Origin: a virus
Direction: 5' to 3' (one strand)
Virus record (IMG/VR): IMGVR_UViG_3300025133_000275
Coordinates: 1 to 39,238 of that record
DNA: 39,238 nt
Shown here: piece by piece, positions 1 through 39,238 of the stretch
Position numbering within the stretch: the first letter of the stretch is position 1
Layout of the letters: each line of letters starts with the position of its first letter
Translations under genes and position numbers: made by a program
Notes under the pieces: generated by a model
What the model was told of the DNA's origin: nothing
What the model saw: the letters and a program-made list of their open reading frames with translations, nothing else
Database searches by the model: none

Positions 1-120
1 GGTGACGAGTCTGGTGACGAGTCTGGTGACGAGTCTGGTGACGAGTCTGGTGACGAGTCTGGTGACGAGTCTGGTGACGAGTCTGGTGACGAGTCTGGTG
101 ACGAGTCTGGTGACGAGTCT
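1..120 (+). repeat. 12-bp tandem array (GDES)n, left end
   Basis: Ten perfect head-to-tail copies of GGTGACGAGTCT fill positions 1-120 and are followed by the variant GGTGACGGCGGC. In the frame of the downstream VWA region each unit reads Gly-Asp-Glu-Ser, so the array encodes an acidic flexible linker. The same array, in the same phase and reading frame, ends the window at 39111-39238. The suffix 39123-39238 (116 nt) is identical to positions 1-116, so the contig is circular or terminally redundant and was cut inside the array. The number of units in the real molecule may be larger than the 10 seen here. Confidence 0.97.
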
Positions 121-1086
121 GGTGACGGCGGCGCTAAACAGTTACCTGATCTTGATATGGACACAGACGACAATATAGACGGCTTGATAGGTGATAATAC
201 TACAGACGGTGAGATACCGGACTACCCGGAAAATGACCTTGTGTCTATACTGGCACGCCGCACGCCGCCGACACATGTTAACGAGTACTACGATAATGAT
301 TTTAACCGGATAGCCAAATATTACAGCGAAGCGCCGTTTAAACAGGAGGTCGATAAACTCACACGGGGCACGCAAAGACTCGAAAACGGCTTGAGATCAA
401 TAATAAAAGTCGAATCAAAAACCGGCGTCATAACCCGGCGGCCGCGCGGTAGATTAGACACGCGCGGCTTAGCACGCGCCGCCGCCGGTGACAGTAACGT
501 GTTTCAAAAACGATGGTATAAACAAGCACAAAATACGGCGGTATGTGTTTTAACGGACGTGTCATCATCAATGACGGTGAATTATGTTGACCACGTGACC
601 GACCCGGCACCCATGTTTCTAGCCGCTACGTTTCAACGTGTAGCCGCGCGCACATTACAGCGCGCGCGTGTACCGTACTCACTTGTGGATTATCACGACT
701 ATACCGTTATCAAAAAGTCGTTTACTGAAAACATAACAGACGCGGAATTAGATAAGCGCGTTATTCTTGGCGGCGCTATTTGCCGGGGATGTACTAATAC
801 AACGACGGCTATTTGTGACGCCGCCGATATGTTTAGCACGATACCGCTATCGACTAACGTCACACGCCGTATCATGCTTGTAGTGACCGACGGTGATTGC
901 GACTATGGGCCTGATATGGTTCGTGAATCAATGGCATACGCGCGCACACAAGGCGTTGACGCTATCTATGGTATCGGAATAGGTGATACCGTCGACTTAA
1001 CCGGCGCTGGCTATGATGCACACGAACATATCAATGCAACAAGTCTACCAACTACAGGGCTGAATATGCTCACACGCGCCGTGTAA
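1..1086 (+). CDS. CobT-like VWA protein, C-terminal part (gene continues from 38406-39238)
   Basis: This is the C-terminal part of a gene cut by the contig ends. The frame is open from base 1 through the GDES repeats to TAA at 1084-1086, so the ATG at 157 is internal, not the start. After the acidic linker comes a von Willebrand A domain. The MIDAS motif DVSSS lies at about 553-567, followed by CTNTTTA (the MIDAS Thr region) near 790 and VVTDGD near 880-897, as expected for Mg2+ binding. The known architecture is that of CobT and related proteins: an N-terminal helical region, an Asp/Glu-rich middle and a C-terminal VWA, working with a CobS/MoxR AAA+ ATPase. The ATPase gene lies directly upstream at 37054-38403. 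Nothing else here suggests cobalamin synthesis, so a chelatase role is doubtful; remodelling of a protein or metallo-target is more likely. Confidence 0.9.
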   Translation, partial: GDESGDESGDESGDESGDESGDESGDESGDESGDESGDESGDGGAKQLPDLDMDTDDNIDGLIGDNTTDGEIPDYPENDLVSILARRTPPTHVNEYYDNDFNRIAKYYSEAPFKQEVDKLTRGTQRLENGLRSIIKVESKTGVITRRPRGRLDTRGLARAAAGDSNVFQKRWYKQAQNTAVCVLTDVSSSMTVNYVDHVTDPAPMFLAATFQRVAARTLQRARVPYSLVDYHDYTVIKKSFTENITDAELDKRVILGGAICRGCTNTTTAICDAADMFSTIPLSTNVTRRIMLVVTDGDCDYGPDMVRESMAYARTQGVDAIYGIGIGDTVDLTGAGYDAHEHINATSLPTTGLNMLTRAV

Positions 1087-3183: not shown

Positions 3184-3364
3184 ACGTAACCCGGATAGAA
3201 AGAAAAGCACTGCTAACGTGAGTCTGCCTTGGGACGTCTACGACCGTTTAGACAAACTGGCAGAGTCCGAGAAAACCAGCCTTGGCAGAATCGTCGAAGG
3301 CTTAATAGATTACTACGAAGAAAGAGAAGGGAAACAGCGTGGAGGTTTTGATGAAGCACTATAA
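3158..3364 (+). CDS. Ribbon-helix-helix (CopG/Arc-type) DNA-binding protein
   Basis: ATG 3158 follows AAAGGAG at 3145-3151 and gives a 68-aa protein. A basic N-terminus (KQKSKRNPDRKK) is followed by a strand (TANVSLP) and two helices (WDVYDRLDKLAESE; SLGRIVEGLIDYYEERE), the arrangement of ribbon-helix-helix dimers in which the strand enters the DNA major groove. It probably regulates the operon or the nearby divergent promoters; the overlapping inverted elements at 2915-2960 are a natural target. It overlaps its upstream neighbour by 26 nt and its downstream neighbour by 14 nt, so the three are probably cotranslated. Confidence 0.75.
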   Translation: MALAKQKSKRNPDRKKSTANVSLPWDVYDRLDKLAESEKTSLGRIVEGLIDYYEEREGKQRGGFDEAL

Positions 3365-3839
3365 ACGAGGCGGCAGTTCAGCCGCCCGGCAAATCGCTTG
3401 CCCAAGCTGGCAGAAAATATCCGAGGGCGTGCCCCAGCAAAGCACAACCAGTTCATACGCCGCCGAGGGTACGGTCTTGCATACCTGCATGGAGAACATC
3501 CTTGAAGACGGTGCCGAGATAAACGATTTTATGGGGCAGACGTTCACTGTCGATGGTATAGAGGTGGTCATTGACGACGATCACATAGAGTTGCTAACGA
3601 TGGCGCTAATGGCGTGGGACGAGTTCTGTCGTCAGAATCATATCGAAGATTACCGCGTAGAACAGACCTTCGAGATTGATGAAGACACTGGCGGTACCTG
3701 TGACGTAATCGCGTGGAGTGACATCAGAGTGTGGGTTCTTGACTGGAAATTTGGGCAAGGCGTGGAAGTAGCCGCCGCAGGATCAAAGCAAGCAATGTTC
3801 TATTTAATGGCAGCGGAGCAAAGTGATGAATATAAGTGA
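3351..3839 (+). CDS. RecB/Cas4-type nuclease (DUF2800-like), N-terminal half
   Basis: GGAGG at 3341-3345 selects ATG 3351 rather than GTG 3339, giving 162 aa. PD-(D/E)XK RecB-type motifs are visible: Glu39-Gly-Thr-x-x-His44, Asp118, Asp131-Trp-Lys133, and Gln147 in SKQAMFYLM. Cys17 (IACPSW) sits where these enzymes carry the first ligand of a 4Fe-4S cluster. The protein stops at TGA 3837-3839 just after the Gln helix, where the family normally continues to three more clustered cysteines. Those are in the next, overlapping gene in the +1 frame. DUF2800-type nucleases commonly precede a single-strand-binding-type protein and polymerase A in phages, exactly as here. It is either a genuine two-subunit split, a programmed frameshift or a sequence error. 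Confidence 0.85.
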   Translation: MKHYKRGGSSAARQIACPSWQKISEGVPQQSTTSSYAAEGTVLHTCMENILEDGAEINDFMGQTFTVDGIEVVIDDDHIELLTMALMAWDEFCRQNHIEDYRVEQTFEIDEDTGGTCDVIAWSDIRVWVLDWKFGQGVEVAAAGSKQAMFYLMAAEQSDEYK

Positions 3840-4485
3840 GTTATTTAAAACCCGAGGGCTGGGTGTGGCTATCATACAGCCGACGCCGAGTAGGGATACT
3901 GAAACACTTAAAGTATGGTGCCCGACACCTGACGACTTCGACGCATTTAAACGTGACTACGCCAAGTCCAAGACTGCTGTCGGCACCAGTGCCGGAGATC
4001 ACTGCAAGTTCTGTCCGGGGGCTTCGGTTTGCCCGATCAAAACAGGTGACGCCCAAGCAGCATCCGTGGCAGACCCGCATGTACTTGACCAGTTGTCTGA
4101 GAATCTAACACTTGCGCTGAGTCTCAAGGAGTGGATCAAATCCGTAGAGAACTTCGCCCATGAGCAGATGGAACAAGGCGCGGCTGTCGAGGGGTTTAAA
4201 CTCGTCCAGAAGCGGGCGACTCGAAAGTGGTCTAATCCCGTGGAAGCGGAGGAAGCCATTAGGCAAACTAAGAAATTCAAAGTGCGGGATTTCACTAAGT
4301 CCACACTGCTAACCCCACCGCAGATAGAAAAGGTGTTCAAACAAAAAGGAGTTGACATGAGCGTACTGGAGGGGTACATTGTCAAACAGTCAACAGGAAC
4401 GACGGTCGCAACGGTCGACGATCCTCGCGACGAAATAGCCGTGAATGTCAACGCGCTCAAAGCAGCACTTGACCGTTCACAATAA
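3826..4485 (+). CDS. RecB/Cas4-type nuclease (DUF2800-like), C-terminal half with cysteine cluster
   Basis: ATG 3826 has GGAG at 3815-3818 (7-nt spacing) inside the preceding gene, so it can be translated in its own right by coupling. The 219-aa product begins MNISELFKTRGLGVAIIQP, the strand expected to follow directly on the upstream half, and holds Cys60-x2-Cys63-x5-Cys69 (CKFCPGASVC), the three C-terminal ligands of the cluster in Cas4/AddB-type nucleases. The remaining part (about 90-219) is helical with many Lys residues and probably binds DNA. It has no catalytic motif of its own and needs the upstream protein. The two frames overlap by 14 nt. Confidence 0.85.
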   Translation: MNISELFKTRGLGVAIIQPTPSRDTETLKVWCPTPDDFDAFKRDYAKSKTAVGTSAGDHCKFCPGASVCPIKTGDAQAASVADPHVLDQLSENLTLALSLKEWIKSVENFAHEQMEQGAAVEGFKLVQKRATRKWSNPVEAEEAIRQTKKFKVRDFTKSTLLTPPQIEKVFKQKGVDMSVLEGYIVKQSTGTTVATVDDPRDEIAVNVNALKAALDRSQ

Positions 4486-12688: not shown

Positions 12689-15373
12689 TTATAACCCGTA
12701 TTTTGTTAGTAGGTGATTGCGGATAGTACCTGCTTCTGAATCCGTGAGTGCTGAGTCAAATACAATGATTTCCCACATAGCCCCCACATACTCATTATAG
12801 CTTGGAGTAGTTGGCCCATCATACGAGGTAAAGAAGGTCGCAAAATCCCAATCATCTGATCCAACATTACCTGTGACACTAGCCAATCCAGAAACAATAA
12901 GTTTAGTTGTTGCATCCCCATTAAAGTGTTCAGAAACAACGTGCATATCAGTGTCATAAGCTGGGGTAATCTGGATCTCTGACCCACTACCCTGTCCAAC
13001 ACCAAACTCTCGGTTCGGATTTGAGTTAATGCCTTTCCACCTAGCATCACTATCAGACCGAGCATCGTGTAAGAAATAAGCGTCGGAGACTGACCCTTCT
13101 GTGTACTTAAAGACCATGAACACAGTTCCGGGCGAACTTATAGTCTGCCCTGCTGTTGTCTCCAAACCTACGTCGTCATTCACATACACAGCCGCATAGT
13201 CAGTCGTATTGACAAAAGCATCACCCTGTATAGTCCATGTCTCACCACCAGCACCGCTGCTTACCCATGTTGAGGTGTTGGCAGTAGCATCTGCTGGGTT
13301 GAAATCCAGTACTGGCGTAGCCGTTGGGTCTGTACTGTTGAGCAAAACTACCCTGCCAAAATTCCCTGTAGCCTTGTTATCTGTACCGCTAGTATCTGAA
13401 CCAATCTCAAACTCATGTGAGCTATCAACCAACGTGCCTACAACATGGGATATGTCGGCACTACCGAGTTGCGCCCATGATACGCTTGCTACCGCTGTTG
13501 TAGCAGCATCATCACTGGTATAGAAGTTGGTTGTGTTGGCTGAATTATCAAAAGTAACCCTTATCCAGTGACCTGTACCATTACTAAACCCTGTAGCAGA
13601 TGTAGAATTGGAATAAACATAATCGGAACCAGTGGTTGATGTGGTTAGGGTTAGTTGGCCACCACTAATATAAAATCTATAACAACGATCAGAACTCCCT
13701 CCATACTTACCCGCAACAACATAAGTTCCAGTATCCCAGACATCAAAAGAAGCATAAGCAATAATTGTGAACGCACTGGATACGCTGTTGTCGGCAGAGT
13801 CGGGAGTAGAAAAGTAGTTGCCCGAAGTGCTGTCCCTCCTAGCTGTATTGCTAGGCAACACAAACAAATTAGCCGCAGTCCCATTCACGGTATCCAGATC
13901 ATAATCCGTACCGCCTGTGCCGCTGTTCGTCCACTCAGTTATGGGGAACGTGCCTACAATGTCAGCAGGAGTGTAGTGGGCCAGCGCAGTAGCAAGCAGG
14001 GTTTCAGCGTTAGCCAGCTCGTACTTGGTTTCAAGGTAGTCCTGTACCAGTGCTACATCGTCGTCACTCAGGGCTGAGTCGAACACGATGAACTCGTACA
14101 TTGCGCCCGTTGTCGGCACAGTGTGAGCAGTATTGGAAAACAACGTACCCCAGTTTAAGTGGTATGCCCCTGCGTCCCCTGTCACACTACCCATACTGCT
14201 GTCTGTTAGTTTTGTAGTAGCATCCCCGTTATGTTGGATCGTAGTGATAGAAAGTGCGTTTTGGTATGGTTCAGCTAGATATATGTTTGATCCCGCGTAC
14301 AGAGTAATCTTGTCTGGTGTTCCAGGCTCAGTGTTTACCCCTATACTAGCCGAGCCTGTTGACTTAGCGTTGAAATACACCTCAGTAGCACTGGGATCTG
14401 CAATTTTTTGTTTCAGTACCATGAATATAGTCATGGGATCAGCTATCGCTTGCTCCGTCGTTGTCTCTATACCAACCGATCCTTTAGCATACACAGCATC
14501 GTAGTCTGTCGTATTGACCACTGCATCGCCTTCAATTGTCCAGACCTCTGCGTTTGCGCCGCTGCTTGTCCATGTGTCGGCGTTGGGGGAAGCATCTGCT
14601 GGGTTACAATCCCATGCGGGGGCTGCGGTTGGGTCAGTGCTTTTTATACCAACTACTCTGCCAAATTTCCCGCCCCATGTTGAGCCTCCATCCAATATGT
14701 CGCCTACCTGAATATCGCCACTACTATCGTAAAGGCTTGTCTGTGTTATTGTTACTGACGTTCCTAGCTGAGTCCATGATACTGCGGTTGGTTCCGTATC
14801 TGCGGCATCGCCTGACGTATAAAAATCTGCCGTATTTGCCGATATATCGTAAGTAACTCTAATCCAGTGCGCGGAACCATTAGCAAAACTGTAGCTTGCA
14901 TTCGACGCGCCATCTGCAACGGTAGCGACCGTCCCATCACTAGTTGTAACTAGGTACAGCTTGTCTGCGCCTGACTCAGTAGCAAAAGCCCAACAAAATT
15001 CCCCTACGGAAGTGAACTGCCCCGCAATGTATTGCCTACCTGTTGAACCCCAATCAGCCAGCGCACCATAACCGATAACTGTAAAGTCCCCTGTAAAACT
15101 GTTAGCGGCTGAGTCAGGCGTGGATAGGTAATCTGCGTATGTCACCTTCACCATGTGGCTCTCAAGCGTAATCAAATTAGCCGCTGTACCCACAACCGTA
15201 TCAAGGTCGTAGGATGCTCCACCCGTACCTGAGTTCGTCCACTCTGTGACGGGAAACGTGCCTACAATGTCGTCTGCCGTATATCGGGCAAGGGCTGTGG
15301 CTAGTAGTGTATCTATAGGAGTGGTAGGTGTGCCGCCACCACCGAACCCAAGCATCTGATAACCAAAACTCAT
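12689..15373 (-). CDS. Tail-associated adhesin with two LamG/concanavalin-like modules
   Basis: This 894-aa protein consists of two homologous halves (about 22-450 and 455-894). Each half starts LLATALA-YT-DIVGTFP-TEWTNSGTGG and later contains HWIRVTYDISANTADFYTS-like strands, WTQLGT/WAQLGS and a closing IIVFDSAL. These are typical strand patterns of Laminin-G_3/concanavalin-type jelly rolls found in phage receptor-binding proteins. The start ATG overlaps the stop of the tail fibre gene (TAATG), so the two are cotranslated. It most likely binds a cell-surface glycan as part of the tail fibre assembly. The duplicated halves have diverged at protein level, so the duplication is old or under diversifying selection. 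Confidence 0.8.
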   Translation of the reverse strand: MSFGYQMLGFGGGGTPTTPIDTLLATALARYTADDIVGTFPVTEWTNSGTGGASYDLDTVVGTAANLITLESHMVKVTYADYLSTPDSAANSFTGDFTVIGYGALADWGSTGRQYIAGQFTSVGEFCWAFATESGADKLYLVTTSDGTVATVADGASNASYSFANGSAHWIRVTYDISANTADFYTSGDAADTEPTAVSWTQLGTSVTITQTSLYDSSGDIQVGDILDGGSTWGGKFGRVVGIKSTDPTAAPAWDCNPADASPNADTWTSSGANAEVWTIEGDAVVNTTDYDAVYAKGSVGIETTTEQAIADPMTIFMVLKQKIADPSATEVYFNAKSTGSASIGVNTEPGTPDKITLYAGSNIYLAEPYQNALSITTIQHNGDATTKLTDSSMGSVTGDAGAYHLNWGTLFSNTAHTVPTTGAMYEFIVFDSALSDDDVALVQDYLETKYELANAETLLATALAHYTPADIVGTFPITEWTNSGTGGTDYDLDTVNGTAANLFVLPSNTARRDSTSGNYFSTPDSADNSVSSAFTIIAYASFDVWDTGTYVVAGKYGGSSDRCYRFYISGGQLTLTTSTTGSDYVYSNSTSATGFSNGTGHWIRVTFDNSANTTNFYTSDDAATTAVASVSWAQLGSADISHVVGTLVDSSHEFEIGSDTSGTDNKATGNFGRVVLLNSTDPTATPVLDFNPADATANTSTWVSSGAGGETWTIQGDAFVNTTDYAAVYVNDDVGLETTAGQTISSPGTVFMVFKYTEGSVSDAYFLHDARSDSDARWKGINSNPNREFGVGQGSGSEIQITPAYDTDMHVVSEHFNGDATTKLIVSGLASVTGNVGSDDWDFATFFTSYDGPTTPSYNEYVGAMWEIIVFDSALTDSEAGTIRNHLLTKYGL

Positions 15374-17715
15374 TAGGCATCGTTCCCTGCGTCAGTGGTG
15401 AAAAACAGTTTTATCCCTATAAGCCTCGCGTCCTCCGCCATAGTATCGCTGCCGTTTGATACAGCCCTGAATATCCTGAAATAGCACATATCCTCAGCCG
15501 CTGGCGTACCGGCTATGGTGATAGCGCCAGACTCGCCCGTTACAAGCATGTCATTTGCTGCCGAGATATTGTTGTCAATGACCACAACAGCAGTACCGTA
15601 GGTCGCGCCTATCGTGCCGTCGTTACTAACCGCTACACCTTGTAGACTCCATGCCACACCATCGGTATCAGTAGCCGTAGAAGTCCAGAAGGCTTGGAAG
15701 GCTACTGTGCCCTCATTCCAGCTCTTTGGAAACGCCACTTGGAACTGTGCGTATTCGGCAGAAGTCCCGTCAAAGTCCAGCACGTTCATATCTGGTTGCC
15801 CAGCCCCTGTCGCAGCCTGTGCTATCGCCGCACAGCCGTTAGACACCGTGGGCAGCATAGCCGCTACTGGAACGAATATAGTTGATTTGCCTATGTTGCC
15901 GGATGCCAGCCCTGTACAAGTGCCTGAGCTGCCGCTGGCGTTGCCTGTGACGTTGCCAGTTAGCGGCCCTGCAAAATTTGTAGCGGCTGTAATCACCCCG
16001 CCATCAATGGCGCTCGACCCGACATCGACAGCGCCAAAACCTGACGTAATCGAACCTGAGTCCAGCGCTCCTACAGTGACCAAATTGGCTGCACTCGTGA
16101 TGGATGCTTGTGTTCCGCCTGTGACCGTTGCTGCGGTGCCACTGGCGTTGCCTGTTACGTTACCTGTTAAATCTCCAGCAAAATTTGTATCAGCAGTAAT
16201 TACACCACCGTCAATGGCGCTACTGCCGACGTCAATAGACCCAAATCCCGACGTTATAGAGCCTGAGTCCAGTGCTCCAACCGTGACGGCGTTAGCCAGC
16301 GTGGTAATTGCTGCCTGAGTCGCGCCTGTGACTGTTGCTGCCGTGCCAGAAGTGTTACCTGTGACATTACCTGTAATATTCCCTGCGAAGTTTGTATCCG
16401 CTGTGATCACACCGCCGTCGATAGCACTGGAGCCGACATCAATAGACCCAAAACCTGACGTAATTGACCCTGAGTCCAATGCGCCTACAGTAACAAGATT
16501 TGCCGCACTTGTTATACTGGCCTGCGTCCCGCCCGTTACAGTGGCTGCCGTGCCGCTGGTGTTTCCAGTAACATTACCTGTTAAATTTCCAGCAAAATTT
16601 GTATCCGCTGTAATCACGCCACCGTCGATAGCACTGGAGCCTACGTCAATAGATCCGAAGCCGCTCGTGATCGAACCTGAGTCCAATGCGCCCACTGTGA
16701 CCGCGTTAGCGAGAGTGGTGATTGCTGCCTGTGTAGCCCCTGTTACGGTTGCGGCTGTCCCTGATGCGTTACCTGTCAGGTTGCCTACAAACACTGTGCT
16801 GGTGATAGATGTCGCGCCTGTGACCACACCCGCATCGACGCTGATCGTGCCGTCCAGAACGATAGCTGATCCGGCTACGGGTGTCAGTGCGAGGTTGCCC
16901 ACGGTGGTCACAATAGCGTCACCGTTGGTGATCTCCAGATTCGTGCCGCCTGTGGTGTTGCCCAGCGCCAGCACCTCAGTCAGTGAGTTCACTGTGCCTA
17001 CCTGCGCGTCTACATACGCCTTGATCGACTGCTGCGTGGCAAGCTGTGTGGCACTGTTTGTACCCATCGCGTCTTCATCGAGTATACCTGTGACCGTCGC
17101 GCCTGTGGCAAGTGTCAGGGACGTAGACAAGGTAGTAGCCGGTGTGACCACCACCGAGGTGCTGATGTCGATGACTGTGGTGAGCGTGCCCGCCTGCATG
17201 GTCTTGACGAGCAGCGTGCCGTCTTCTGTGGCGTCTGTCACGTCGTCTATCTGGGCCTCGATAGAGGCGAAGGTGGTCTGTGTACCCCCGTCGTCCTCAC
17301 CGTCGAAGTAGACCGCGCCTATAAAGTCCGCGTCTGCTGGCGAGGCTGAGTTCCTGTGCAGCTTGAGGATAGGGCCAATAGTAGCGTCTGCCACTGCGCT
17401 GATCACCGTGGCGACCTCCGAGGCGTAGTCCATGACCTGCACACCCGCGAGGGCTATGCCGACGTTCCCCGTGGCGATGTAGTATATACCTGTGGATAGC
17501 TCATCGGTGAAGGCGTAGCCGGGTAGACTGACGGTGCCTGCGAACCCTTCCAGACCTGCGAGCATCGCGCCACTACCTGACCGGGAGAGGCTGTCTGTCA
17601 TCTCCGTGGCAAGGTCTGTCAGCGTGTTATTCGCCCATGTCGCTGAGATCGTCGTACCCGAGCTAACCGGGTTCCCCGATGCTAAACTATAATTACCTGA
17701 CGCGTCGCGTGCCAT
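15373..17715 (-). CDS. Tail fibre protein with Gly/Thr-rich repeats
   Basis: AGGAG, then GTTTAAAC, then ATG 17715 gives 780 aa. The N-terminus (MARDASGNYSLASG ... ISATWANNTLTDLATEM) is typical of podophage tail fibres that attach to the tail. From residue 319 four copies of a 69-residue unit follow (GTAATVTG ... AGNLTGNVTGN), forming a probable beta-rich trimeric shaft. The C-terminal 150 residues (after CTGLASGNIG) form a compact domain with a segment like IFVPVAAMLPTVSNGCA. No peptidase S74 motif is present here; one occurs in a different protein (21730-23367). It overlaps the adhesin gene downstream by one base. Confidence 0.88.
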   Translation of the reverse strand: MARDASGNYSLASGNPVSSGTTISATWANNTLTDLATEMTDSLSRSGSGAMLAGLEGFAGTVSLPGYAFTDELSTGIYYIATGNVGIALAGVQVMDYASEVATVISAVADATIGPILKLHRNSASPADADFIGAVYFDGEDDGGTQTTFASIEAQIDDVTDATEDGTLLVKTMQAGTLTTVIDISTSVVVTPATTLSTSLTLATGATVTGILDEDAMGTNSATQLATQQSIKAYVDAQVGTVNSLTEVLALGNTTGGTNLEITNGDAIVTTVGNLALTPVAGSAIVLDGTISVDAGVVTGATSITSTVFVGNLTGNASGTAATVTGATQAAITTLANAVTVGALDSGSITSGFGSIDVGSSAIDGGVITADTNFAGNLTGNVTGNTSGTAATVTGGTQASITSAANLVTVGALDSGSITSGFGSIDVGSSAIDGGVITADTNFAGNITGNVTGNTSGTAATVTGATQAAITTLANAVTVGALDSGSITSGFGSIDVGSSAIDGGVITADTNFAGDLTGNVTGNASGTAATVTGGTQASITSAANLVTVGALDSGSITSGFGAVDVGSSAIDGGVITAATNFAGPLTGNVTGNASGSSGTCTGLASGNIGKSTIFVPVAAMLPTVSNGCAAIAQAATGAGQPDMNVLDFDGTSAEYAQFQVAFPKSWNEGTVAFQAFWTSTATDTDGVAWSLQGVAVSNDGTIGATYGTAVVVIDNNISAANDMLVTGESGAITIAGTPAAEDMCYFRIFRAVSNGSDTMAEDARLIGIKLFFTTDAGNDA
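15934..16761 (-). repeat. Four 207-bp repeats in the tail fibre gene
   Basis: Unit boundaries are 16761-16555, 16554-16348, 16347-16141 and 16140-15934. Each encodes 69 residues. Units alternate A-B-A-B: A units have ATQAAITTLANA and B units have GTQASITSAANL, so a two-unit block was duplicated. The protein is nearly identical between units while many third codon positions differ. Confidence 0.92.
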
Positions 17716-21729: not shown

Positions 21730-23367
21730 TTAAACCCCCCGCCTTACCGGGACGCACTCTACGTCAATCAGGTCGTAGAAGACCCCGAGCATACCGTTTA
21801 TGCCTTCAGCTACCGCATGACCAAGGCCCATAGCCAACAAGTCTTGAGCCATCGCACCGCTGTACACCTGTCCAGTATCATCGTCGCTATACCTGAACGT
21901 GTAAGTTGGAATACCAGACGGAGAAGTGCCTCTACGCTGTATATCGTGCTTCAAGCGTCGGTCACTTGCTTTCATACCCGCACCCGCAGCGCCCATGAAG
22001 GCGTTAAACATGCCTGCACCTGTACTGTAGCCCTGCTGGTCGAAGTTACCCTGCGCCTGTGCTGCTGCAAGTAGCTGCGGAGCCTGTGCTGCGCCTGCAC
22101 CCATAAACTGCGGCATCTGAGGCGTACCGACCTGCTGCCCGGTCATAAGCGCGTTCATCTCGTTGATGGACATACCTCTGCGCTGGGCTTCTTCTGCAAT
22201 CGCCTGCTGTCTGAGCGTGTTCTGGTAGTTCGCGGCTTGCATCTGCTGATTAAAGCCCTGCCCGCCCATCGCCAACTGCTCTTTCATCAACTGGTTACGC
22301 TGCTGATCCTGATAGTTCGCTGTCTGCATCTGGCGGTTAAACGCCGCATCTTGAGCGCTGCCCTGCTGCTGCTGTAGTGCCTGCATCTCACCGAACTGTT
22401 GCCCACGCAGTGCATTGGCCTGCTGTGCTGCTTGCGCCTGCTGACCGAATCGCTGGGCACCTATACCCAACTGCTGCTGTAGTGCCTGTTGTGCCGCCTG
22501 ATTAGCGAACTGGCCTTGCTGGTTGATCTCACCCGCCTGCTGGCCCCTTCGCGCCATCTCACGTTGAAACTGGTTCTGTTGCTCCTGTCCGCCATAGCGT
22601 ACAGAGTCCGCTGAGATACGCCCACGCGCCTCACTCTGCTGGTTACGCAGATCACGGATGCCCCGGTCATACGCCTCCGTGCCGGGTGTTAAACCCCGGT
22701 TGCGGAGTTGTACTTCCATGCTCTCCATCGCCCGCTCTTGTTCCGGGCGCAGGAGTGACATATTCCTATCGTATTGGGTCTGTGCAAAGTCAGGGTTATA
22801 CGCCCCGGCTGCGTTGACATCGTTTAAATCGGCATAGTTAAGACCGCGCTGGATGTTCTCCTGCCCAAGTCCCTGCGCCTGTGGGCCTTGCTGCCACGAG
22901 TTTAACTCGTTGTACTGCTGTGCACCTTCAGGGAGCGCCTGTTGTGCGGGGTTGGGGTTGGGTAGCGAACCCATCTGCGTAAGCCCCTGACCATAAAAGT
23001 CAGGCACGTCAGGTGCTGACGCGGGATCAGGCATGTTATTCCAATCAAACTGCTGGGCCGTCTCACCTGCGGCCCTGCCTATCAAGTTTTGCGCTAGACC
23101 AGAGCGCCCCTGCTGTACCGCTATTTGTGAGTCAAGCGCCCGCTGTATCTGTGGGTTGAGTGCCTCTGTTTGGTGCCATTGAGTAACCGCTTTGTTTGTA
23201 GATGGGTCAACCCTGCTTTTAGTGCTCCACGACGTAGACCCCCACGGCGTAATTTGCTCAGGTCGATTAGCCCACGTTTGCTGACGAACAATCTCCTTGC
23301 CCGCTTCTGCTTCTTCTACCGCTGCACCTGTATAGTCTGGTGCGTCTGGTGCGTCTTTTTTACCCAT
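21730..23367 (-). CDS. Gln-rich internal virion or tail protein with C-terminal S74-type motif
   Basis: This 545-aa protein is very Gln- and Ala-rich (about 150-460: QRFGQQAQAAQQANALRGQQ and similar), probably long helices. Its last 78 residues start with SDRRLKHDIQ (Ser468, Lys473) and run through YTFRYSDDD and YSGAMAQDLL. This matches the start of the peptidase S74 intramolecular chaperone that trimerises and then cuts itself from phage fibres at that Ser. It is unusual to see it here rather than at the end of the fibre. The start ATG overlaps the stop of the GNAT gene by 8 nt, with AGAGGA upstream. Its role is probably tail tube or DNA ejection. Confidence 0.75.
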   Translation of the reverse strand: MGKKDAPDAPDYTGAAVEEAEAGKEIVRQQTWANRPEQITPWGSTSWSTKSRVDPSTNKAVTQWHQTEALNPQIQRALDSQIAVQQGRSGLAQNLIGRAAGETAQQFDWNNMPDPASAPDVPDFYGQGLTQMGSLPNPNPAQQALPEGAQQYNELNSWQQGPQAQGLGQENIQRGLNYADLNDVNAAGAYNPDFAQTQYDRNMSLLRPEQERAMESMEVQLRNRGLTPGTEAYDRGIRDLRNQQSEARGRISADSVRYGGQEQQNQFQREMARRGQQAGEINQQGQFANQAAQQALQQQLGIGAQRFGQQAQAAQQANALRGQQFGEMQALQQQQGSAQDAAFNRQMQTANYQDQQRNQLMKEQLAMGGQGFNQQMQAANYQNTLRQQAIAEEAQRRGMSINEMNALMTGQQVGTPQMPQFMGAGAAQAPQLLAAAQAQGNFDQQGYSTGAGMFNAFMGAAGAGMKASDRRLKHDIQRRGTSPSGIPTYTFRYSDDDTGQVYSGAMAQDLLAMGLGHAVAEGINGMLGVFYDLIDVECVPVRRGV

Positions 23368-23803
23368 GTGCTGTGTCCTCTACTGCTGGTTGATCTATCC
23401 AGCGGCATTTCTCTTTTCTCATGGCGGTCAATATGTAATCGACCCCCTTCTTGTAGCCGTCAGGTACGCGGCCTATGTCTTCAAATCCTATATGGCGTAT
23501 AAACTTCAACGCCTGCTTATTGTCTTCAGGCGTGATACCTATCACCACCTCACGCCCTGATTCTTCACTGAACGCGAACTTAAAAACCTCTTCTGCAAAC
23601 CCGTTTTTCAATACGAACGGGTTGTCTATAAATATGTGTATCTGGCACGAGTTAAACGACCATGTGTCCAGTACGCACGCGGCTACCAGTTTACCCGTTT
23701 CGTCCTGCGCTACAATACCCCGTGTGTCCTCACACTTACGAGGTCGGGCTTTAGCGGGGATCATCTCCCAGTGCCACGGCAGGATGGGGACGAAGTAAAA
23801 CAC
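23360..23803 (-). CDS. GNAT-type acetyltransferase-like protein
   Basis: This 147-aa protein has the GNAT layout: strands GIVAQDETGKLVAACVLDTWS and CQIHIFIDN, the cofactor-region helix KNGFAEEVFKFAF, EVVIGITPEDNKQALKFIRHIGFEDIG as strand 5 and helix, and a final strand VDYILTAMRKEKC. Similar small GNAT proteins sit among podovirus connector and tail genes, perhaps modifying a virion or host protein. A canonical Q/RxxGxG/A acetyl-CoA loop is not clear, so activity is unproven. GTG 23803 overlaps the preceding stop by one base (TAGTG) and is the only sensible start before Met14. Confidence 0.72.
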   Translation of the reverse strand: MFYFVPILPWHWEMIPAKARPRKCEDTRGIVAQDETGKLVAACVLDTWSFNSCQIHIFIDNPFVLKNGFAEEVFKFAFSEESGREVVIGITPEDNKQALKFIRHIGFEDIGRVPDGYKKGVDYILTAMRKEKCRWIDQPAVEDTAHG

Positions 23804-33436: not shown

Positions 33437-34767
33437 TAAATTCTACGCCTCGCAATGGATAGCTTCTGTGGTTTTTCCCTATCCTCAAACAACTCGTTCA
33501 ATGTGATTTTTGGCTTCTCAAACACTGGACGTGAGGGTTGTGACGTGATATTACCCCTTTTCTCCTGCGCGACCAAGGCTAAATATCTAAACGCATCTGC
33601 TCCGTCAGAGGCCCAATCGTGGAGGGGGGTGTCTCTAAAAGCTTTTGTAAGCTCGTTAAACTCTCGTCGATACGCTCTAAGTGCTTCAACACCTGCGTCG
33701 CCATTGGTTGTGTCAATGTGGCATGTTGGCAGTACAAGGCGAGCAGCGTCAATACCCTGTTGTACGGCCAGTTTAGGCACCACGCGGCATGGTAGACCCG
33801 CTTCGATAAGCTGTTCGACTGTTGATCGCCCCGTTTGGAGCGTCTTTGCTCGTGCGTCGTGAGGTAGCCAGAGTGTTTCAATTTCATAGGGCTTCGCCTG
33901 TAGCATGTCGATGTAATGGCTGAGAGGGACGGACTGATTCTCATAATAGTCGATTATGGCTATGCCGTCAGGTCTTGATTGCCAGAACCAGAAGGCGCAG
34001 GAGTCGCTGTACCCGATGTCGGCGGCGATCTGTACAGGTTGGGTGTGGTCAAAGAGGTTGAGCTTCCCGATTTGGCCCTCTTGCTCCATCGTTTGTATGA
34101 TAGCGGCATAGTAAGTTCCCAATACCGCTGCTGTGAAGTCACACTCAAATTCTTGATCATACTGCGCTTGCTCCATCAATCCTTGCAGTTGTTTAAGGTC
34201 ATCAGGGGCCAGTATGCCTGATTCGCTCGCCTTGAGCGTCATACTGAACCACTCCGGGTCGCTTACCGCTGTTTGGTGAATATGATAAAAATGGTTCTTA
34301 CCTTTTGGCGTACCAATGAACGCAGCCCAACCGCGCCTGTCCGCAAGCGTTGGTAAAATAACTTCGGCCCATAAAGAAGGACGACAATCACCATACTCGT
34401 CAAGAATAACGCCGTCCAGATATATCCCCCGGAGAGCATCAGGATTATCAGCGCCGTAAAGAGTAATCCAAGCACCGTTAGGAAGTACCACGCGAAGATC
34501 AGATTCTCTGACTTCAACGGCAATGCCTTCTGTAGCGTCTTTGAGGTATGTCCAAGCCACGTCTTTAGCCTGTTTATAAAATGGTGCAATATACGCATAT
34601 CTGGCGTTCTCCTTTGGTGTGTATAGGGCGCGAATGACGGCCTCGTTGACGCACGCGAAGGTCTTACCAGCGCGGCGGTGACAAACTAGGGATGACCAGC
34701 GTTTATCCCTCTGGTGTAAGGGCAGAAAGTGGTCGCGGGGGGTGTATTTGAGCTTAAATTCAGCCAC
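33436..34767 (-). CDS. terL: Terminase large subunit
   Basis: The ATPase/nuclease that packs DNA. Walker A HRRAGKT follows SSLVC; Walker B VILDEYGD, then the coupling motif GTPKGKNHFY. The RNase H-like nuclease has DIGYSD, LPHDARA and a final Asp in WASDGADAFRYL. The best start is GTG 34767 (MAEFKLKYTPRDHF ...), which overlaps the stop of the 53-aa gene; TTG 34794 is upstream but unlikely. The protein is then 443 aa. It acts with the small subunit at 34914-35420 and docks on the portal encoded next. Overlap of the stop with the portal start couples them. Confidence 0.95.
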   Translation of the reverse strand: MAEFKLKYTPRDHFLPLHQRDKRWSSLVCHRRAGKTFACVNEAVIRALYTPKENARYAYIAPFYKQAKDVAWTYLKDATEGIAVEVRESDLRVVLPNGAWITLYGADNPDALRGIYLDGVILDEYGDCRPSLWAEVILPTLADRRGWAAFIGTPKGKNHFYHIHQTAVSDPEWFSMTLKASESGILAPDDLKQLQGLMEQAQYDQEFECDFTAAVLGTYYAAIIQTMEQEGQIGKLNLFDHTQPVQIAADIGYSDSCAFWFWQSRPDGIAIIDYYENQSVPLSHYIDMLQAKPYEIETLWLPHDARAKTLQTGRSTVEQLIEAGLPCRVVPKLAVQQGIDAARLVLPTCHIDTTNGDAGVEALRAYRREFNELTKAFRDTPLHDWASDGADAFRYLALVAQEKRGNITSQPSRPVFEKPKITLNELFEDREKPQKLSIARRRI

Positions 34768-35420: not shown

Positions 35421-35472
35421 AGCGTGTCTATGGAGCAAAGTTTTTATACGCTCATTTTAAAATCTCGATTTT

Positions 35473-35499
35473 TTGTCTGACAGGGGGCCTATCAGACAA
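35473..35499. repeat. 8-bp stem inverted repeat
   Basis: TTGTCTGA (35473-35480) and TCAGACAA (35492-35499) flank an 11-nt loop (CAGGGGGCCTA). T residues precede rather than follow the stem on the plus strand, so it is not a normal terminator in that direction. Confidence 0.6.
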
Positions 35500-35512
35500 C
35501 TCGGAGAAAAAA

Positions 35513-35557
35513 TAGGGGGACGCAACTAGGTTTTCTATCCCGGTTGCGTCCCCCCTA
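35513..35557. repeat. Long hairpin with 12-bp perfect stem
   Basis: GGGGGACGCAAC (35515-35526) pairs perfectly with GTTGCGTCCCCC (35543-35554), loop 16 nt, extended by TA/TA with one bulged C. There is no T-run on either side, so it is more likely a structural, protein-binding or packaging element than an intrinsic terminator. Confidence 0.75.
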
Positions 35558-35568
35558 GCTGGGAGGGT

Positions 35569-35920
35569 GTTTAAACGCTGTATGTGCGGAGGCGTGTTTA
35601 AACACACCCCGGCAAAATAAACATAAAAATTTTTATTTTGGCCGTGTACTTTTTAGCTTTGGTGTGCATAGGTACGCTCATTTTAAAAATAACAAAAATA
35701 TACGTGTACCTCCGAGCAATTGCAGCGACAGCCGGATCGAATTGACCGTGGGGGTGCCTTTCTCCTGCTGTTTAAACACTATTAGAACAATGAGAACAGG
35801 CCATACCATGCACATATGGCGCGCTGGCTAAGTTTAAACGCGGCGGCTGTACGTGTGCCAGCGCTAGACGCTGTTTTGCCATCACAGGCCATCACAGGCC
35901 GTTACAAGCCATGTTTAAAC
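35569..35920. repeat. Cluster of five GTTTAAAC palindromes
   Basis: Copies lie at 35569, 35596, 35770, 35832 and 35913, two of them as the longer GTGTTTAAACAC or TGTTTAAACAC form. This is the highest density of the motif that occurs 29 times in the window. Also here are the 14-bp palindrome ATAAAAATTTTTAT (35623-35636) and three 10-bp tandem units based on CCATCACAGG (35879-35908; two exact, one degenerate). Confidence 0.9.
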
Positions 35921-35986
35921 ACTACGCGCTACCGTGTAACCTGTGAACTATTTAAACCATGTATTTATACCGCCAAATACCGTAGA

Positions 35987-36230
35987 TTCTACCGGTGTTA
36001 CGGTATGCTGGCACGCCGCGTATTTAAAGGGATACAGCCTATTTCTACCGGTGTTACCGTGGTTTTAGTTAAACTTCATATATAAGAAAAACCATATACC
36101 CTATACCACTGTATATATATACAGTACTACTTTTAATAACCATATATAGTAAGTAGAAGGTAGAACCGGTAGAAAATAGCCACACCTCCCGCCGTTACTA
36201 CCGCTCGCAAATACCGCGCCCCCGGTAGAA
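35987..36230. repeat. TTCTACCGG repeats in both orientations
   Basis: TTCTACCGGTGTTAC occurs at 35987-36001 and again at 36043-36057. The reverse form CCGGTAGAA occurs at 36166-36174 and 36222-36230, with further GTAGAA copies at 36153 and 36160. Between the two orientations lies an AT-rich tract with the 18-bp palindrome ACTGTATATATATACAGT (36108-36125). Iterons flanking an AT-rich element are the usual look of a replication origin, though no initiator is proven. Confidence 0.7.
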
Positions 36231-36344
36231 ATACCCTAAAAAGTGTCCGTTTAGACGGTTCAAACCATGCATTTACGTGATCTATGTCAATTTCTTACAT
36301 GATTTACACTGTTTAGACACTTGACAATATGGTGAAATTCGCGG

Positions 36345-36362
36345 ACACTCGCTAGCGAGTGT
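36345..36362. promoter_or_regulatory. 18-bp operator-like palindrome upstream of the SprT gene
   Basis: ACACTCGCTAGCGAGTGT is a perfect palindrome, extendable to 26 bp (36341-36366) with one G-T mismatch. The element CGGACAC occurs at 36343 and 36374, and its reverse complement GTGTCCG at 36244. A TTGACA lies at 36321-36326 but a good -10 is not seen. A dimeric repressor or activator site controlling unit A is likely. Confidence 0.6.
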
Positions 36363-36400
36363 TCGCAATAACGACGGACACCGCCAACGGAGAGCCAAAA

Positions 36401-37027
36401 ATGAACGAACCAATTACACGCGAACAGTGGCTAAATAGCGCCGCCGCTATGATAGTAGCTGAAATACTCGAACCCGCCGTGAATACGCGCTCGCGCCTGT
36501 TCCCACTTGACGCCGCGCTGCCGGTGCCACACTACCGCATAAGTGTAGCGCCGTTAAAATCTAAAGCTCTGGCTGAATGTCACCCCCAATCACATAGCGC
36601 CGACGGTATCAATGAAATCTTCATCGACGCCGGAGAAAGTGACTCACTAAAAATGCTGGCTAGTCTGCACCATGAACTAATACACGCATTCGATAATTGT
36701 GAATCAGGGCACAGGAATTTCTTTGCCCAGATAGCGCGCGCTACCGGATTGGAAGGAAAACTTACCGCTACCGTAGCCGGGGAAACATTGACAGTTACGC
36801 TACAAGAATACGTCGATATCTTAGGCGATATCCCGCACGCCAAGTTGTCTATACCTAATAAATCAAAAGGACGGAATAACAATAAACTACTATGCGCGTG
36901 TGGATTTAAATCCAATCTATCAGCTAAACAATGTACCGCCGTAGAACAGGGCGTTATGTATCAAACACACGGTATGGTTCACTGCCCAGCGTGTGCAAAC
37001 ATCTCACTTGAAATTCACCGCGCGTAG
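36401..37027 (+). CDS. SprT-like zinc metallopeptidase
   Basis: ATG 36401 has GGAGAG at 36389-36394; GTG 36359 lies upstream but within the palindrome. The 208-aa protein has HHELIH (His91-Glu92-x-x-His95) and a third His in ESGHRNFF (His104), the SprT/SPRTN-type zinc site. The C-terminus has a zinc ribbon (CAC at 165-167, HCPAC at 194-198). SprT-family proteins cleave DNA- or chromatin-bound proteins, or act without proteolysis. It is the first gene of an operon with a CobS-type ATPase and a CobT-like protein that itself has an HExxH motif. GC-rich, CGCG-heavy base use sets this operon apart from the late genes. Confidence 0.85.
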   Translation: MNEPITREQWLNSAAAMIVAEILEPAVNTRSRLFPLDAALPVPHYRISVAPLKSKALAECHPQSHSADGINEIFIDAGESDSLKMLASLHHELIHAFDNCESGHRNFFAQIARATGLEGKLTATVAGETLTVTLQEYVDILGDIPHAKLSIPNKSKGRNNNKLLCACGFKSNLSAKQCTAVEQGVMYQTHGMVHCPACANISLEIHRA

Positions 37028-37053: not shown

Positions 37054-38403
37054 ATGACAAATCTAACCATAAATAGCCAGCGCCGCGCCTTGATACAAAA
37101 AGGCCACGCGGTAGCAGGGTTAACCGACGCCGATATTGAACAGGCATATAACGCTATGACACTTGGCGCCGCGCTAGGTAACACACCTAAGCCTATTCAG
37201 CCGCAACCTAGTGATACCAGTAGCGCGCCGCAAAATAGCACCGTTGGCGCTGATCTTGCGAATACATTTATGAACGACGGGAAAAACGCGTTTATAGCTT
37301 CCCTAGGCGTCGTACTAGGCGATTATCAAAAAGAGAATGATAACCTCACCAGTATCATAGACGGCCTACACGCGGACAACAGCGCGCTACAGGATGATGT
37401 CGACAACGCGCGCCGTATATCGACTACGCCGCCGCAAATCATAACGCGCACAGTTGACATTGACGGGAACGAAATAACGCCGGACGTGAACCCGCAAAAA
37501 GTCGATACAGTACAAGCCGCCGACATCTGGCCTGACATCGACGGCGCGTATACTTTCGACAGATACGACTTTGAAGCGCCGCGTGAACCTGCATTTTATG
37601 ACATGAATCAGATGCACAACTCCGGGTTACTGGCACAGGTAGCCAGCGCCGTTAAACGTGATAACCCATTATGGCTATACGGTGAAAAAGGCACAGGCAA
37701 AACGACTTTTGTACAATCGCTGGCCTTCTCATTAGGACGTCCGTTTTTCAGGATATCGCACACTAAATCAATGGAATCGCAGGCATTGATAGGTTGTTTC
37801 CTGCTACCTGACAGTAAAACCCAGTGGAGTGACGGCGCGTTGACTCAGGCCATTAAAACGCCGCGCGCGGTCATACTCTTAGATGAACCTACGCGTAACC
37901 CGGACGCGTGCGAAATCTACCAAACACTACTGGATGAGAAATACTATGACATAGCAGAAACCGGGGAACGCGTGTGGATAGCTGACGGCGTGTCATTTTT
38001 TGCCGCCGATAATCAAAACGGTGACGGTGACGATACAGGCCGCTACGACGGTACGTTTGCGGTTAACAGCGCCTTTGGTGACAGGTTCAAAGCGAAACTA
38101 CAATGCTTCTATATGGCACCGGCACATGAGGCCGCGTTACTTGTATCGTTGACCGGTATCAATAAAAACAGCGCGCTGGAAATAGCGGAATTTGCGAACA
38201 TCATGCGCGGCATGGCTACCGCAGGTGAGATTGAAGAACCTATTTCTTTTAGGCGTTTAAACGCGTTAGCTGAATTCATAGTCGACGGTATACCGCACGA
38301 CTTAGCGATGGAAACAGCCGTGTTTGCTTTTATAAGACACGAACAGGATAGAGAAACATACCGCACGCAAGCCGCCGTACACCTTACACAATTGAGAGCC
38401 TAA
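37054..38403 (+). CDS. cobS: CobS/MoxR-type AAA+ ATPase
   Basis: AGGAAACAGGA before ATG 37054 gives 449 aa. An N-terminal 190 residues (partly low complexity, possible coiled coil near 85-115) precede the AAA+ domain: Walker A GEKGTGKT (210-217), Walker B VILLDEPTR (Asp277-Glu278), sensor 1 FFAADNQNG and DRFKAKL with an arginine-finger candidate. It closely follows the CobS/MoxR pattern, which works with VWA partners such as CobT, encoded two bases downstream (38406). The N-terminal extension replaces the short N-terminus of bacterial CobS. A MoxR-type remodeller is more likely than a cobaltochelatase. Confidence 0.9.
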   Translation: MTNLTINSQRRALIQKGHAVAGLTDADIEQAYNAMTLGAALGNTPKPIQPQPSDTSSAPQNSTVGADLANTFMNDGKNAFIASLGVVLGDYQKENDNLTSIIDGLHADNSALQDDVDNARRISTTPPQIITRTVDIDGNEITPDVNPQKVDTVQAADIWPDIDGAYTFDRYDFEAPREPAFYDMNQMHNSGLLAQVASAVKRDNPLWLYGEKGTGKTTFVQSLAFSLGRPFFRISHTKSMESQALIGCFLLPDSKTQWSDGALTQAIKTPRAVILLDEPTRNPDACEIYQTLLDEKYYDIAETGERVWIADGVSFFAADNQNGDGDDTGRYDGTFAVNSAFGDRFKAKLQCFYMAPAHEAALLVSLTGINKNSALEIAEFANIMRGMATAGEIEEPISFRRLNALAEFIVDGIPHDLAMETAVFAFIRHEQDRETYRTQAAVHLTQLRA

Positions 38404-38405
38404 AC

Positions 38406-39238
38406 ATGGACTACCTAAGCACACTAAACAGCGCTAAGCCGGTTTCTGGCTACGCCTATGCACAGGCCAGCCGCGCCGCGTTAGCGGCTATGCTACGCGC
38501 ACACGCCGTCGACGTGAAACGTATTGACGTACACTGCCAAGGAAACACGGCGGCTATTAACTTCGATACAAATATTTATGGTGAATTGAGTATCACGCTA
38601 TTTTTGCCAGCGCTCCCCAAATCAGGGATGTTAACCCGGATACAGGCCGATACTTTTACCGGATACTGGCTACATGAATCTTTGCACGCCTTGTATACAA
38701 CAAAAGATAATGCTAAGACACAATCCTTGTTCCCTACGCCGTATGAGTTTTCTATGTTTAACGGCTTAGAGGATTGCAGGATAGAAATGTTAGCCTTGCA
38801 AAATAACGTCGCTGTTAACTTATTAAAATGTCTCACACGGCTACGCCGCCACACGTTCAAAGGCATACCGGCTGAACGTTTAAACGCGTTAGTTGATAAC
38901 CCGTTACAATCGCTTGGCTATATCTTAAAACTGGCTATTAATGAACAGTTTGGCATCGACGCCGGGGCGCTACCGTTTTTATCACGCCTTGATAGTATCG
39001 AAAAGTATTTAGAGCACGCACGCGCCGGGGCACTAAAGCCTAGTTTCCTGATGGAATTTGGCGCGGCTAAACTGGCGCGTGAAATACTTGATAGGCTACA
39101 AGCGCCGGATAGTGACGAGTCTGGTGACGAGTCTGGTGACGAGTCTGGTGACGAGTCTGGTGACGAGTCTGGTGACGAGTCTGGTGACGAGTCTGGTGAC
39201 GAGTCTGGTGACGAGTCTGGTGACGAGTCTGGTGACGA
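38406..39238 (+). CDS. cobT: CobT-like protein, N-terminal zincin-like part (gene continues at 1-1086)
   Basis: ATG 38406 starts two bases after the ATPase stop; the frame stays open to the end of the window through GDES repeats and is in the same frame as positions 1-1086. In the 239 residues before the array there is HESLH (His90-Glu91-x-x-His94) and, 27 residues on, GLEDCRIE (Glu122/Asp123, Glu127). This HExxH plus EDxRxE pair is found in metallopeptidase-like domains fused to VWA in DUF2201-type proteins and resembles gluzincins. The full protein is at least about 600 aa: zincin-like domain, acidic linker, VWA. Whether it cleaves peptide bonds is unknown. Confidence 0.88.
   Translation, partial: MDYLSTLNSAKPVSGYAYAQASRAALAAMLRAHAVDVKRIDVHCQGNTAAINFDTNIYGELSITLFLPALPKSGMLTRIQADTFTGYWLHESLHALYTTKDNAKTQSLFPTPYEFSMFNGLEDCRIEMLALQNNVAVNLLKCLTRLRRHTFKGIPAERLNALVDNPLQSLGYILKLAINEQFGIDAGALPFLSRLDSIEKYLEHARAGALKPSFLMEFGAAKLAREILDRLQAPDSDESGDESGDESGDESGDESGDESGDESGDESGDESGDESGD
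39111..39238 (+). repeat. 12-bp tandem array (GDES)n, right end
   Basis: The array opens with the variant AGTGACGAGTCT (Ser-Asp-Glu-Ser), followed by nine perfect GGTGACGAGTCT units (39123-39230) and eight bases of a tenth. It joins in phase and in frame with the array at 1-120. Because the unit is 12 bp, gain or loss of units changes linker length by four residues without breaking the frame. Confidence 0.97.

Follow-up and report, generated by a model that had tools for sequence, protein, structure and literature searches.

In tailed viruses, clusters of cobS- and cobT-like genes are widespread, and it has been proposed that they borrow CobN from the host (PMC8651126). In the clusters described there, as in Microcystis phage Mae-Yong1326-1 (OP028995.1), a cobT-like gene directly follows an AAA+ cobS-like gene, and in the CobT-like product an acidic linker joins an N-terminal HExxH region to a VWA/MIDAS domain at the C terminus. 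Both the gene order and this layout recur in the window, which is the whole 39,238-nt contig analyzed here (IMG/VR record IMGVR_UViG_3300025133_000275). The Microcystis phage CobT is encoded by a single gene (644 aa) directly 3' of cobS and carries the motifs HETLH and DMSDSM as well as an acidic linker of GEGS-type repeats. In two-sequence BLASTP comparisons, its residues 33 to 107 align with the cobT-like N half at the right end of the window (E 2.7e-7) and its residues 409 to 603 with the C half at the left end (E 1.4e-9). Identity to the Microcystis phage CobT is about 29%, and the window has a perfect GDES array in place of the GEGS-type linker. In Rhizobium phage B1VFA, unlike in the window, cobT precedes cobS; the profile of the corresponding phage CobT-like family, phrog_1576, matches the C half (E 1.9e-6) but not the N half alone, which had no PHROG match at E values up to 1. 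The major capsid proteins of Stenotrophomonas phage BUCT555 and Myxococcus phages Mx8 and Mx9 are 58 to 65% identical to that of the window, whereas neither cobT half had a match at an E value of 1e-5 in a protein search of a phage collection including all three.

A second comparison concerns the contig ends. According to the CheckV authors, contig-end overlaps whose lengths are fixed and odd stem from assembler k-mers, which they often equal in length (PMC8116208). The end sequence of the window is likewise tied to the k-mer length, but the cut is random in the closed contigs described there and is set by a tandem repeat here. Phage cobST genes are already published, and the gene pair and the assembly break are both of a known kind; the window adds one divergent cobST pair to the known phage pairs. 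The features concerned are as follows.

1 to 127, plus strand: 12-bp tandem array (GDES codons) at the left contig end, 127 nt by repeat scan
1 to 1086, plus strand: cobT-like gene, C-terminal part, with the remaining acidic linker and a VWA domain with DxSxS (DVSSS); C profile match
36359 to 37027, plus strand: small putative metallopeptidase (HELIH) upstream of the cobS-like gene; phrog_6361, E 1.1e-24; Peptidase_M76, E 0.034 (weak)
37054 to 38403, plus strand: cobS-like MoxR/AAA+ ATPase; AAA_5, E 3e-17; CbbQ_C, E 1e-5; phrog_249, E 4.5e-47
38406 to 39236, plus strand: cobT-like gene, N-terminal part, open at the contig end; HESLH at residues 90 to 94, LEDCRIE at 121 to 127; N profile match
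39112 to 39238, plus strand: 12-bp tandem array (GDES codons) at the right contig end, 127 nt by repeat scan

The array unit is GGTGACGAGTCT, which encodes Gly-Asp-Glu-Ser (GDES), and it is the same in unit, phase and frame at both ends. Each terminal array has a period of 12, is exactly 127 nt long and contains no mismatch, bearing out the claim of a preliminary description that the contig is cut inside a tandem array. That description had also recognized the shared unit, phase and frame, but its coordinates (1 to 120 and 39111 to 39238) are replaced by the measured ones, since the period is broken at base 39111, outside the array. The longest exact suffix/prefix identity of the contig is 116 nt, with shorter overlaps at every 12-nt step; these are not 116 independent matches, because a single 12-mer is repeated in phase. 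Counting direct repeats on one strand, no exact repeat of at least 55 nt occurs in the window apart from the terminal arrays (tested at 55, 77, 99 and 105 nt), making chance an unrealistic source of the end identity, and no exact direct repeat of 127 nt was found in the window.

The open reading frames (ORFs) at 38406 to 39236 and 1 to 1086, both on the plus strand, read through the array as GDES without a stop. Joining the contig ends at an overlap of 116 or 104 nt gives a single frame of 600 or 604 aa, respectively, and the frame is kept for every array length of 138+12n nt. Two profiles, one for the N and one for the C region, were derived from the CobTs of nine phages (Microcystis; Rhizobium B1VFA and RHph_Y2_11; Nican01; BUCTxx99; CRP-810; T5S1-k141_653015; Hollow; Cyrano), eight of them hand-picked for spread from 50 listed records for which B1VFA was the query. 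Among 224 stop-to-stop ORFs of the window (at least 60 aa each, E values up to 1), the sole match to the N profile is the right-end ORF (E 7.7e-7), and the sole match to the C profile is the left-end ORF (E 4.6e-19). The shared frame and these complementary matches support the view that the two half-genes make up one CobT-like protein, and also the related warning that each half would be misannotated if treated alone. The join, the gene identity and the closed map were all correctly recognized in the preliminary description.

The motifs of the joined product agree with this assignment. DVSSS at residue 425 (DVSSSM) provides the MIDAS DxSxS motif present in all nine reference CobTs, and the most acidic stretch has 28 D/E in 60 residues (19 to 37 of 60 in the references). 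HESLH at residues 90 to 94 fits the HExxH of the zincin-like region, which is found in seven of the nine references and is absent from Nican01 and BUCTxx99. Of the layout proposed earlier, the linker and the VWA domain stand, and the N-terminal domain may be called zincin-like on the strength of its HExxH motif and a modest profile match. Neither half matched the Pfam models for the cellular cobaltochelatase subunit, PF06213 (CobT) and PF11775 (CobT_C), at E values up to 1, and the Microcystis phage CobT fails both models likewise; because these models are unmatched, we use the name CobT-like rather than CobT. The C half has a match to the Pfam VWA model under the curated cutoff (E 5e-4).

Scans of viral contigs with each cobT half, with the AAA protein and with alignment A1 gave nothing or a near-identical contig only, the VWA half being absent from all other viral contigs scanned, and none of 182 pattern matches was confirmed in a genome-contig scan with alignment A1. 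In a PDB profile search with the same alignment, the solved CobT (9uka) had an E value of only 0.13; the top match was an uncharacterized protein, 3rag (E 7.5e-6), confined to a portion of the C-terminal region, and several further matches fell in the low-complexity linker. Single-sequence AlphaFold models of the two halves had mean pLDDT values of 44.3 and 38.9 and were set aside.

The cobS-type AAA+ gene adjoins the cobT-like gene, ending 2 nt upstream of its start codon, and its family phrog_249 is annotated as "porphyrin biosynthesis"; phrog_6361, matched by the putative metallopeptidase, is a family of unknown function. Between the terS-like gene and the metallopeptidase gene, the sole ORF of at least 60 aa in about 0.9 kb (35439 to 36358) has 89 aa, and this stretch is possibly a promoter, origin or packaging region. 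Among the relatives found via the major capsid protein, many of whose records are fragments, a VWA search hit 1 of 24 records (weak, E 9.5e-4, with internal stops) and an AAA search hit 2 of 23, a near-identical one (G001) and a weak one (E 6.7e-5). The cobST pair looks accessory within this phage group. CobN proteins are larger than 894 aa, the size of the largest ORF in the window, so that a phage CobN is apparently absent and the phage appears to have none of its own.

Why does the contig stop in the middle of a gene? The repeat, the reading frame, the domain matches and the gene order are direct observations, and the window is very probably a near-complete tailed-phage genome from a short-read metagenome, whose closed graph was cut at the GDES array in the cobT-like gene. 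The assembly graph would be closed and cut at its sole unresolvable repeat, the GDES-coding 12-bp array in the middle of that gene, and the acidic linker would be the part broken in silico. Nine near-full-length relatives of 36.5 to 41.8 kb, found via the major capsid protein, were compared. In three of them (G008, G013 and G020) the ends share an exact overlap of 127 nt, in a fourth (G011) one of 112 nt, and the remaining five have no end overlap. Measured from the capsid gene, the breaks of those three fall at different distances, a pattern that arbitrary cutting of a ring would produce. We infer that the assembly k-mer was 127. In a simulated de Bruijn ring with k = 127, in-phase arrays of 150 or 162 nt led to a stop at 39,238 nt, and arrays of 126 or 138 nt let the ring close; a simulated ring with an out-of-phase array of 300 nt gave 39,237 nt. 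The match in length indicates consistency and not independent proof, since the input held the window's 127-nt ends and the match is partly built in. If k was 127, ends of exactly 127 nt require the array to span 150 nt or more and the map 39,134 nt or more, and the true array would measure 138+12n nt with n at least 1. The minimum circle of 39,122 bp given earlier holds for a plain overlap but not under this argument. The cobT-like gene would then be split between the ends because a short-read assembler is unable to cross the 12-base repeat.

It is very unlikely that the ends belong instead to a pair of distinct genes that each contain a GDES array and flank a missing segment of a ring that does not close here. 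Such an arrangement would fit the lack of an independent contig across the junction (none in the viral-contig scan with the VWA half, which is carried by none of four near-identical records), and a naturally split cobT, with the vWA domain as a separate ORF, is described for HHTV-2 (PMC8651126). However, both frames continue through the array stop-free, and the halves are complementary CobT parts in the correct order. Moreover, an exact three-unit scan of viral contigs returned a near-identical record only, with no third contig showing other flanks, and the window's length falls within the range of its nine near-full-length relatives. That the window is a physical linear genome whose ends are terminal repeats composed of the GDES array is barely credible. 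Direct terminal repeats of 125 bp have been reported for the pelagiphage Skadi (PMC10504331), with a TerL about 41% identical to that of the window, but an end here would interrupt the coding frame that links two conserved domains. Moreover, each terminal array runs for exactly 127 nt, which equals the overlap found in relatives, near-identical contigs stop elsewhere (e.g., at 9365 and 33828), and Mx9, with a capsid protein 58% identical to that of the window, is reported to use headful packaging (PMC10281127).

A genome assembled as a closed graph and cut at the array is compatible with several forms of virion DNA. The end overlap indicates a circularly closed assembly graph only, because the same result would come from a linear genome that is concatemeric or circularly permuted. 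Hence, of the earlier statement that the genome is circular, the closed map stands on the overlap and the domain logic, but a physical circle does not follow, as other genome forms fit equally. The closed map forms a ring of about 39 kb, a usual size for tailed phages. Mx9 DNA was found to be linear and terminally redundant (PMC10281127), and the Skadi pelagiphages are reported as circular contigs, with the direct terminal repeat in four of nine (PMC10504331). By analogy with its relative Mx9, the virion DNA of this phage is probably linear, permuted and headful packaged.

The cobT-like product, encoded 3' of the cobS-like AAA+ gene, would consist of a zincin-like domain at its N terminus and a VWA/MIDAS domain at its C terminus, joined by an acidic linker. 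In a CobST complex, the AAA+ ring would drive the VWA subunit, perhaps together with a borrowed host CobN. As the 12-bp array is perfect, the length of the linker could change in four-residue steps without a frameshift. It is conceivable, if doubtful, that linker length varies as a ladder across the phage population and that the spacing between the zincin-like and VWA domains tunes the coupling to the AAA+ ring or the host CobN.

One near-identical virus from another dataset, IMGVR_UViG_3300010155_000104 (22,887 nt), is 99.92% identical to the window across 20,960 nt. This contig breaks in the window's terminal array, 105 nt into it, and we would guess that 105 nt is the k-mer of its assembler. 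Its other end lies within a region of 207-bp tandem repeats, where its last 300 nt find their best window match at 16629 to 16330 with 87% identity. In the window, this repeat occupies 15930 to 16776, in an ORF on the minus strand (15373 to 17715) without a PHROG match; because the near-identical contig ends there with that identity only, the region appears to be fast changing. Three further near-identical records (L011, L012 and L058) cover other parts of the window. Two of them, L011 (1 to 852) and L012 (1 to 1717), diverge from the window just inside the start of terL (window position 34766 onward), and in the terS region their DNA identity to it is about 71%. This pattern suggests recombination upstream of terL in near-identical strains.

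The window neatly exemplifies a viral contig whose stopping point is set by a coding tandem repeat and not by a genome end, and the gene at the ends is therefore lost to annotation. In building the CheckV database, contigs whose end repeats are of low complexity or occur more than 5 times were removed (PMC8116208). Contigs like the window could be discarded by such a filter despite holding an essentially complete genome.

Two other regions of the window deserve mention. Overlapping ORFs on the plus strand at 3339 to 3839 and 3823 to 4485 match parts 85 to 249 and 309 to 468 of the 501 positions of the phrog_69 exonuclease; since successive parts are matched, they look like one nuclease gene split over two frames, by a frameshift or a sequencing error. 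An acyltransferase-like gene (phrog_4470; 23360 to 23803, minus strand) lies amid the virion genes, and the corresponding area of BUCT555 contains a gene for a GNAT acetyltransferase.
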